Shown: positions 31,474-32,853 of the stretch, piece by piece
Position numbering within the stretch: the first letter of the stretch is position 1
Layout of the letters: every line of letters starts with the position of its first letter
Source: Nocardioidaceae bacterium
GTDB taxonomy: Bacteria > Actinomycetota > Actinomycetes > Propionibacteriales > Nocardioidaceae
Direction: 5' to 3'
DNA length: 32,853 bases
Assembly: GCA_030655315.1 (NCBI GenBank)
Contig: JAURVT010000030.1
Span: 1 to 32,853, forward strand
Position numbers and translations under genes: made by a program
The notes under the pieces: generated by a model
What the model was told of the DNA's origin: nothing
Database searches by the model: none
What the model saw: the letters and a program-made list of their open reading frames with translations, nothing else

Positions 31474-31544
31474 GCGGGTGTAGCTCAATGGTAGAGCCTC
31501 AGTCTTCCAAACTGATCACGCGAGTTCGATTCTCGTCACCCGCT
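31474..31544 (+). tRNA. tRNA-Gly (anticodon TCC)
   Basis: 71 nt on the plus strand. GCGGGTG pairs fully with CACCCGC; the D-arm is GCTCAATGGTAGAGC; the anticodon arm TCAGT-CTTCCAA-ACTGA gives anticodon TCC; the T-arm contains GTTCGATTC; discriminator T. CCA is not encoded. It reads GGA/GGG codons. Confidence 0.95.
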
Positions 31545-31554
31545 CCCCTTCGAA

Positions 31555-31609: not shown

Positions 31610-31629
31610 CACGACCACACGGAGGAAGC

Positions 31630-31860
31630 ATGAGCGAGTCCACGACCGAGGGTCCGGCTGACGGCGGCGCCGAGGGCGTTCCCGGCGTGCAGGACGGTGG
31701 CGCCGACGGCGGCGCCGAGGGTCCCGCCGACGGCGGCGCGGACGGCACGCCCGGTGTCCAGGACGGTGGCGCCGACGGCGGCGCCGAGGGTCCCGCCGAC
31801 GGCGGAGCCGACGGCACGCCCGGCGTCCAGGACGGCGGCGCCGACGGCGGCGCTTCGTGA
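31630..31860 (+). CDS. 76-residue acidic triple-repeat peptide, function unknown
   Basis: After MSESTT the protein is three 23-residue units in a row (residues 7-29, 30-52, 53-75) and a final Ser. Each unit begins EGPADGGA, has PGVQ in the middle and ends DGGADGGA; units 2 and 3 are identical in protein sequence and unit 1 differs at two residues. It has no Lys, Arg, His, Cys or aromatic residue, so it is strongly acidic and surely disordered. GGAGGA ends 3 nt before the ATG, and third-position G/C fits a real gene. The stop TGA overlaps the GTG start of the cupin oxygenase gene (GTGA), so they are coupled. Possible roles: a substrate (RiPP-like precursor or carrier) of the oxygenase, or a Ca2+-binding acidic repeat. 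I recognise no family. Confidence 0.8.
   Translation: MSESTTEGPADGGAEGVPGVQDGGADGGAEGPADGGADGTPGVQDGGADGGAEGPADGGADGTPGVQDGGADGGAS
31648..31854 (+). repeat. Three tandem 69-bp repeats (in-frame)
   Basis: Units 31648-31716, 31717-31785 and 31786-31854 encode the 23-residue repeats. The DNA copies differ mainly at synonymous third positions, which points to selection on the protein repeat and not just recent slippage. A shorter ADGG/DGGADGG sub-repeat is nested in each. Confidence 0.9.
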
Positions 31861-32853
31861 CGCAGCAGCACCTCGTCGGAGCGCCCGGGCAGCTGCCCGG
31901 GCGCTCCGCGCTGCAGCGCCTGGTCGCGTGCGACCCCGACACCTTCGCCGAGCGCCACTGGGGTCGTGAACCGCTGCTGTCGCGGGCCGCGGACCTCCCC
32001 GGCGGGTTCGACGACCTGTTCTCCGAGGCCGCTGTCGACGAGCTCGTCTCGACCCGCGGCCTGCGCACGCCGTTCCTGCGCGTCGCCAAGGAGGGCACCA
32101 CCCTCGGCGACCGCGCCTTCACCGCGCCCGGCGGCGTCGGGGCCGGCATCGCCGACCAGGTGAGCGACGACAAGCTCGCCGTCCTGTTCGCCGACGGCGC
32201 CACCCTCGTCCTGCAGGCGCTGCACCGCACCTGGCCCGCGCTCGTCGACCTCGCGTCCGAGCTGGCCACGGAGCTGGCGCACCCCGTCCAGGTCAATGCC
32301 TACGTCACGCCGCCGCAGAACCGCGGCTTCGACGACCACTACGACGTGCACGACGTGTTCGTGCTGCAGGTGGCGGGCGAGAAGCGCTGGCGCATCCACG
32401 AGCCCGTCCACCCCTCCCCCCTGCGCGACCAGCCCTGGACCGCCCACCGCGAGGCCGTCGCCGCCGAGGCCGCACGGCCCCCGTGGCTGGACGAGACGCT
32501 CCGCCCGGGTGACTGCCTCTACCTGCCGCGCGGCTACCTCCACGCCGCGACCGCCCTCGGCGGCGTCAGCACCCACCTCACGGTCGGCGTCCACACCTGG
32601 ACGCGCCAGCACCTCGCCGAGAAGGTCGTCGCCGAGCTCCTGGCCGCCACCGCCGAGGACCCCGACGTCCGCGGGTCGCTCGGCCTCGGGGTCTCCCCCG
32701 ACGACGCGCCGGCCACCGCCGACGACCTCGCGCTCGTGGTCCAGCGGCTCACCGCGGCGCTCGGACGGGTCGAGCCCGATGCCGTCGCCGACCGGATGGC
32801 CGGGCCGGTCCGCGCCGCGGGCCGCGCGGAGCCCGTGGGCCCGCTGGCCCGGC
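31857..32853 (+). CDS. JmjC/cupin-4 family 2-oxoglutarate oxygenase (partial)
   Basis: 332 codons are visible; the 3' end lies beyond the window. Start GTG at 31857 overlaps the peptide gene stop. The protein has an N-terminal FAERHWGREPLLSR segment, then the double-stranded beta-helix with the Fe(II) triad His161-x-Asp163 (GFDDHYDVHDVFVLQVAGEKRW) and distal His229 (LPRGYLHAA). This is the cupin_4/ribosomal-oxygenase pattern of E. coli RoxA (YcfD) and human MINA53/NO66, which hydroxylate Arg or His in ribosomal proteins using 2-oxoglutarate and O2. The actinobacterial members' substrates are not known to me. Coupling to an acidic repeat peptide suggests that peptide as a candidate substrate. 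Confidence 0.85.
   Translation, partial: MTQQHLVGAPGQLPGRSALQRLVACDPDTFAERHWGREPLLSRAADLPGGFDDLFSEAAVDELVSTRGLRTPFLRVAKEGTTLGDRAFTAPGGVGAGIADQVSDDKLAVLFADGATLVLQALHRTWPALVDLASELATELAHPVQVNAYVTPPQNRGFDDHYDVHDVFVLQVAGEKRWRIHEPVHPSPLRDQPWTAHREAVAAEAARPPWLDETLRPGDCLYLPRGYLHAATALGGVSTHLTVGVHTWTRQHLAEKVVAELLAATAEDPDVRGSLGLGVSPDDAPATADDLALVVQRLTAALGRVEPDAVADRMAGPVRAAGRAEPVGPLAR

Follow-up and report, generated by a model that had tools for sequence, protein, structure and literature searches.

Two genes at the end of the window (the whole stretch of 32,853 nucleotides analyzed here) are, by comparison of sequences, the first two genes of a widespread actinobacterial cassette, in which a gene for a repeat peptide is followed by a gene for a JmjC_2 oxygenase and usually by a gene for a Suc_Fer thioredoxin-like ferredoxin. 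The peptide is very probably a target of the oxygenase. It is rather probable that the two form a RiPP-like pair, in which an iterative Fe(II)/2-oxoglutarate (2OG) hydroxylase modifies a multi-core substrate and Asp is the likeliest target.

The gene pair in the window

The peptide gene begins with an ATG at 31630 and ends with a TGA stop at 31858-31860, and the GTG start of the oxygenase gene at 31857 forms a GTGA overlap with this stop (Table 1). The first-pass annotation had described a 76-residue reading frame with a strong Shine-Dalgarno sequence, a short start followed by three 23-residue units, and a GTGA overlap, all of which can be read directly from the sequence. The start takes up 6 or 7 residues depending on the phase in which the units are read. 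The units are rich in Gly, Asp, Ala, Glu and Pro, and are identical pairwise in 57-62 of their 69 bases. Each of the 11 Asp residues (11/11) is followed by Gly. The annotation had also called the peptide free of Cys, Lys and aromatic residues, and this is borne out by the 76-residue translation, from which Cys, Lys, Phe, Trp and Tyr are absent, Arg and His being missing too. The peptides match no Pfam or NCBIfam family at the curated cut-off, and a single Pfam match with an E value of 0.7 was discarded.

Table 1. Coordinates of the cassette features and of the upstream neighbor in the window
Feature	Position	Strand	Basis
tRNA-Gly(TCC), upstream neighbor outside the cassette	31474..31546	+	
Shine-Dalgarno sequence GGAGGA of the peptide gene	31621..31626	+	sequence read
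76-aa Asp/Gly/Ala repeat peptide, proposed substrate (precursor)	31630..31860	+	ORF, upstream relatives, codon-position test
Repeat unit 1 (GPADGGAEGVPGVQDGGADGGAE)	31651..31719	+	
Repeat unit 2	31720..31788	+	
Repeat unit 3	31789..31857	+	
GTGA start-stop overlap, likely translational coupling	31857..31860	+	sequence read
JmjC_2 (cupin_4) Fe(II)/2OG oxygenase, truncated at the contig end	31857..32853	+	PF08007, E 4e-27; NO66 alignment

The peptide is translated

The aligned codons of the Nocardioidaceae class A peptides (the classes are described below) differ 910, 725 and 4830 times at codon positions 1, 2 and 3, respectively, and those of 10 Streptomyces 151, 177 and 2135 times. In class B, where the amino acids diverge too, the corresponding numbers are 20103, 20338 and 30918. 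Since the differences among relatives sit mainly at third codon positions, the peptide is translated, and the coding test together with the conservation identifies a ribosomal precursor gene of the kind that RiPPs have.

It could be supposed that the peptide is a chance product, namely a low-complexity reading frame in GC-rich DNA adjoining an ordinary cupin, since repeats of high GC content leave several frames open and long antisense frames do occur here. The probability of this is negligible, and the conservation tests already refute it. An ORF finder gave scores of at least 0.6 at 74 of 76 related cassette oxygenases (it missed L083 and L105) but at only 1 of 608 random places in the same loci, which rules out chance; the substitutions follow the third-position pattern, and the repeat peptide is found at none of 25 lower-scoring JmjC_2 genes.

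The cassette in Nocardioidaceae

Among 149 genomes of the family, the oxygenase is found at E <= 1e-15 in 77, the window's own included, and an Asp-rich repeat peptide lies directly upstream in all 77 cassette oxygenases (at L083 it is seen as a tail at the contig edge, and at L105 it is frame-broken). Beyond the window's own, 77 matches were inspected, of which 76 lie in cassettes; the remaining one, L106 (31%), is a second homologue within one genome and has neither the repeat peptide nor Suc_Fer. Conversely, when these 149 genomes are searched with a class A peptide (E <= 1e-6), matches come only from the 20 class A genomes, in each of which the peptide adjoins the oxygenase, and from a relic in genome G124. 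Taken in both directions, these searches place a dedicated, putatively modifying enzyme alongside the precursor, as in RiPPs. The first-pass annotation had asked for the peptide beside cupin_4 homologues in Nocardioidaceae and for variation in the copy number of the 23-residue unit, and both exist, the unit being present in 2-4 copies in class A. It had also held that homologues never accompanied by a repeat peptide would speak against the pair; within the clade the opposite is the case, and it is the lower-scoring JmjC_2 genes (25/25) that do without the peptide. The pairing of substrate and enzyme is thus strongly supported by co-occurrence wherever the sequence suffices, by the variable copy number and by a peptide type that tracks the oxygenase tree.

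A Suc_Fer-like match follows downstream in 73 of the 73 loci of other genomes that have room for it (L046, L065 and L066, which end at a contig edge, are left out of this count). Its start lies anywhere from 72 bases ahead of the oxygenase stop to 79 bases behind it, L105 with its broken frame being the exception at 553. Neighbor clustering, which covered 67 of the 77 loci (10 were dropped), revealed no other gene as widely conserved beside the cassette. Many RiPP classes, but not all, have a protease or an exporter in the cluster; in the same 67 loci no conserved protease or transporter/exporter was found. In several class B cassettes, among them L107, L112 and L113, another gene, which looks like one for imidazolonepropionase (HutI), terminates a short way ahead of the peptide gene.

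Peptide types and the oxygenase tree

The class A peptides (20 genomes) consist of 2-4 units of the type EGPADGGAxGxPGVQDGGADGG. Class B (57 genomes) has an acidic leader, e.g. PLxDDD(I/M)xTT, and units such as DGDATDTTDGD and GGDADGTD. In L075 and L077, class A units follow the leader MLDDDDMTT, a combination that points to a relationship between the two types. Oxygenases of both classes occur together in none of the 149 genomes searched (random chance 2.7e-5 when relatedness is ignored). A decayed single class A unit (L292, G124:C4:483006-483089) is present in a class B genome, with no oxygenase in the adjoining stretch that was read, and is perhaps a relic of cassette replacement.

Statistics were collected on 149 peptides, excluding L083, L105, L106 and 15 class-wide loci; the starts of the peptides were set by a script, in some cases at an internal position (e.g. 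L128, L130, L163). The mean composition is 29% Gly and 20% Asp. Of the 2631 Asp residues, 1516 precede Gly, and the L046 peptide contains no DG at all. His is present in 87 of the 149 peptides, often just ahead of DGG. With regard to the layout of leader, core and RRE known from RiPPs, a strict acidic leader pattern is found in 60 of the 149 peptides and no leader is common to all, while the βββ-ααα domain of the oxygenase is equally that of the ribosomal-oxygenase winged helix.

The oxygenase tree contains 65 sequences, of which 44 belong to cassettes (8 of 19 class A, 15 of 57 class B and 21 of 80 named oxygenases) and 21 are lower-scoring oxygenases, four of the original 25 having been removed by a motif filter. 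The 44 cassette oxygenases fall into one group (95/91), which also holds L244 and L245, two oxygenases without the cassette that are perhaps placed there by long-branch attraction. The oxygenase of L074, from Nocardioidaceae, groups with those of Streptomyces, Kocuria, Arthrobacter and Flexivirga, and its leader is Streptomyces-like (NPNDPNETEG vs NPEQDPNQHEG). The L075 and L077 oxygenases are placed with those of Blastococcus, Geodermatophilus and Pseudonocardiaceae; the leader at these two loci, of the DDD(I/M) type, resembles theirs. In L074, L075 and L077, leader type and oxygenase tree go together. Such agreement supports the partnership without proving it, because co-transfer of the operon alone could produce it. 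The cassette probably moves horizontally among actinobacteria.

Occurrence outside the family

A scan of named genomes gave at least 567 confirmed relatives, the best 80 of which were examined. These 80 include Streptomyces, Arthrobacter, Kocuria, Terrabacter, Humibacillus, Kineosporia, Blastococcus, Actinokineospora, Agreia, Cellulomonas and others, and some of them share genomes with other loci in the comparison (e.g. L061/L120). The repeat peptide lies upstream in 74 of the best 80, the remaining six having fewer than 270 bases upstream of the match. BLAST finds Suc_Fer downstream in 61. Of the 19 loci without such a match, two stop too early, which leaves 78 with room; at 17 of these 78 (Terrabacter, Humibacillus, Intrasporangium and a few more) the available stretch gives no BLAST match and also lacks the CxHxxHDxCC motif.

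In a class-wide search of 393 genomes, 72 places reach 275 bits or more, and 52 of these lie beyond Nocardioidaceae. Of these 52, 15 were chosen by hand; the peptide is present at all 15 and Suc_Fer at 14 (not at L236). In a hand-chosen sample of 25 lower-scoring JmjC_2 loci, the repeat peptide is found at none of the five loci of 215-270 bits and at none of the 20 weaker ones; the highest peptide score at the lower-scoring loci is 0.47, against a lowest score of 0.80 on the other side of the comparison. When plasmids were searched for an annotated copy of the cassette, the matches listed were all JmjC_2 genes of a more distant kind.

The lower-scoring JmjC_2 genes are often preceded by another small peptide gene (12 of 20 by eye: L255-L259, L261, L263-L267 and L269), and acidic small peptides of this kind also occur on the Streptomyces plasmids of L270 and L271. 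They carry Asp-Gly or similar acidic motifs close to their ends, e.g. ...SDGTDSSSDFI and ...GRSDGND, and one type is followed by an aldo/keto reductase gene. These look like further undescribed JmjC_2-peptide pairs. At L263 and L264, a distant JmjC_2 gene and an acidic DDDL...DPDGSDG peptide have a Suc_Fer-like gene nearby on the opposite strand (recognized by Pfam at L263, the one locus of the two compared with Pfam), which on the face of the sequences is a second association of parts of the repeat-peptide/JmjC_2/Suc_Fer type. Upstream of the JmjC_2 gene of L246 there is a small Cys/Asp-rich reading frame, MAETKTLKMDEIQ...NPNYCY, which may be another type of precursor.

The oxygenase

The first-pass annotation had assigned the second gene to the cupin_4 family with an intact HxD...H iron site, and the PF08007 match and the HxD...K...H pattern in the alignment with NO66 confirm this. 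H161-x-D163, K176 and H229 of the window oxygenase align with the residues of NO66 that bind the metal and 2OG, and all four are invariant across 21 aligned oxygenases. The protein thus possesses a JmjC_2 domain with the HxD...H metal site and the 2OG-binding Lys. Class A oxygenases are 54-72% identical to that of the window; for class B oxygenases, two comparisons give 37-48% and about 34-46%. The nearest solved proteins by sequence are NO66, MINA53, YxbC and YcfD.

As the window copy is cut, a structure model was made for the intact orthologue L142 (412 aa, pLDDT 89.9). A Foldseek search matches the model to the peptide and protein hydroxylases NO66, MINA53 and YcfD. Its C-terminal part consists of strands followed by three helices (βββ-ααα), an order found in RREs and equally in the winged helix of ribosomal oxygenases. 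The C-terminal winged helix is recognized, by secondary structure and Foldseek, in the L142 model only; the Pfam ROXA-like_wH model matches neither L142 nor L042.

The contig break and the third gene

The window is a complete contig (G000:C47) that ends inside the oxygenase gene. Contig C17 of the same genome, read from its end, opens with an 84-residue oxygenase C-terminus, which is overlapped by a Suc_Fer-like gene (PF06999, E 5e-18) encoding 321 residues from the first ATG. The ends of C47 and C17 probably lie next to each other in the genome, some residues being lost from between; judged against L059, the gap between the two contigs, which were not joined, has probably cost only a few residues. 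The suggestion of the first-pass annotation that the gene pair continues to the right therefore holds, in that the gene for a thioredoxin-like ferredoxin comes next on C17, rather than one for the transporter or protease that it had thought of.

The Suc_Fer-like protein has the PF06999 domain and the thioredoxin-like ferredoxin fold: its model (pLDDT 91) matches thioredoxin-like [2Fe-2S] ferredoxins with a Foldseek probability of 1.00, although the best E value is only 2e-3. In an account of Apd1 and Aim32 (PMC8482512), which share the PF06999 domain, the fold and the CX8C...HX3 part with the cassette protein, the cluster ligand motif of these thioredoxin-like ferredoxins is given as CX8CXnHX3H. 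In the 21 aligned Suc_Fer proteins CX8C and the first His are invariant, whereas the second His is replaced by Asp in 20 and by Cys in one; the copy in the window's genome has Asp. It is possible that Asp (or Cys) in place of the second His constitutes a new [2Fe-2S] ligand set. The cassette protein further differs from Apd1/Aim32 in being bound to the cassette.

Upstream DNA

In the 130 bases upstream of 146 cassette peptides, a stress-sigma-like pattern (G[GT][TGA]T, 14-18 bases, GGGTA), modeled on the sigma B/F consensus, occurs in 23 of 146 sequences on the forward strand, against 2 of 146 when the opposite strand is read and no more than 4 in 20 single-base shuffles. It is missing upstream of the window peptide. 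Two sigma-70-type patterns occur in none of the 146 upstream sequences. A box for the iron regulator IdeR was rejected, as its best match in 74 sequences has 8 mismatches of 19.

Proposed function of the cassette

The features observed are the conserved gene order, the tight spacing, the coding character of the peptide, the variable number of its units, the intact 2OG-oxygenase site and the co-occurrence of the genes. By combining them, it is possible to outline how the cassette may work. The oxygenase would bind the peptide by its N-terminal leader and/or by the repeats, perhaps through the C-terminal winged helix, and would then hydroxylate the repeats iteratively, most likely at Asp in [A/T/S/H/Q]-D-[G/A] contexts. 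Asp is proposed because this is the reactive context common to the peptide types. Hydroxylation of the peptide is plausible; Asp as the hydroxylated residue, which the first-pass annotation had also proposed, is a reasoned guess. The ferredoxin-like protein might handle electrons or iron, for example by re-reducing the iron center. The product would be a polyhydroxylated acidic peptide with a possible role in the binding of metal ions or under stress.

As a rule, 2OG hydroxylases work without a ferredoxin, so that plain hydroxylation would not call for the third gene. The conserved redox partner suggests that more may take place, and the oxygenase might modify the peptide elsewhere than at the β-carbon of Asp, at Gln/His, Pro, Val, Ala or Gly, or might carry out a desaturation, a crosslink or a ferredoxin-helped cleavage. 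JmjC relatives do act on Orn and, by the names of PDB entries, on His or Arg, and the His found ahead of DGG in many peptides points the same way. This alternative is nevertheless unlikely, as the window peptide has neither His nor Arg, the class B peptides lack an H/Q-DGG site, and Asp is the reactive side chain common to every type. Hydroxylation of His as the general reaction was rejected, the window peptide and the class B peptides that were read having no His at such a site. More improbable still is that the peptide is an acidic partner of the oxygenase (a chaperone, an inhibitor or a translation-coupled regulator) and that the enzyme in reality acts on a ribosomal or some other protein. 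Among solved structures, its nearest relatives are indeed ribosomal oxygenases, and start-stop overlaps are frequent in operons of many kinds. A housekeeping ribosomal modifier, however, would hardly be limited to about half of the genomes of the family (77/149) or have diverged as far as the class B oxygenases. Furthermore, expansion and loss of units is the behavior of a multi-core substrate, and other JmjC_2 genes of Actinomycetes adjoin different small Asp-Gly peptides.

It is also conceivable, if somewhat doubtful, that the peptide is a hydrophilin-like stress protein, in which hydroxylation tunes the binding of metal or water and which is never cleaved, and thus not a RiPP in the strict sense. 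The composition, rich in Gly and Asp and presumably disordered, agrees with this, as do the absence of a conserved protease or exporter from the neighbor clustering and the strand bias of the stress-sigma-like pattern; the window itself is without that pattern, and many peptide types have a leader-like N-terminus. Except for the cleavage, a hydrophilin-like protein is compatible with the iterative hydroxylation of a multi-core substrate favored here. Taken further, and with no greater confidence, the cassette may make a stress-induced poly-β-hydroxyaspartyl (Asp-Gly) peptide by means of one iterative JmjC_2 hydroxylase and a dedicated ferredoxin. Such a peptide, spread horizontally across Actinomycetes, might bind Ca2+/Fe3+ or water inside the cell or after secretion, the other Asp-Gly peptides adjacent to JmjC_2 genes being further branches.

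Relation to known systems and implications

NO66, MINA53 and YcfD (RoxA) share PF08007 and HxD...K...H with the cassette oxygenase, as well as the C-terminal winged helix seen in the orthologue model. The cassette oxygenase differs from them in being tied to a repeat peptide, and usually to Suc_Fer, and in being present in only part of the related genomes.

Two reports (PMC12707348, PMC12257519) describe BipG and PbsQ, JmjC/cupin hydroxylases whose target is Orn in RiPP precursors; BipG, BpmG and PbsQ of the biphenomycin-type RiPPs thus likewise hydroxylate a residue of a ribosomal precursor peptide. As described there, one Orn is modified within a many-enzyme pathway, whereas the cassette has, apart from the redox-type protein, no conserved modifying enzyme other than the oxygenase, and the precursor offers many near-identical sites. 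PMC12710340 describes RRE-like βββ-ααα domains fused to PF08007 in fish and algal proteins, an order of strands and helices also seen in the L142 model, and places the closest bacterial JmjC homologues in RiPP-like contexts; in the passages considered here, the cassette of repeat peptide and ferredoxin is not mentioned. No description of the cassette was found in the literature searched, the coverage of which leaves out most subscription journals. An annotation of the Streptomyces copies as 'BatC protein' was not confirmed in the literature.

If the proposed function is correct, the cassette would produce a family of modified peptides not described before. Many actinobacterial species, probably hundreds in view of the at least 567 confirmed relatives (the best 80 examined), would make an unrecognized, multiply hydroxylated Asp-Gly peptide. 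A clade of JmjC_2 proteins would gain a natural substrate and a bacterial Suc_Fer protein a redox role, and the oxygenase would be an iterative peptide hydroxylase for many near-identical sites. This would suggest that the ribosomal-oxygenase fold serves dedicated small peptides too.
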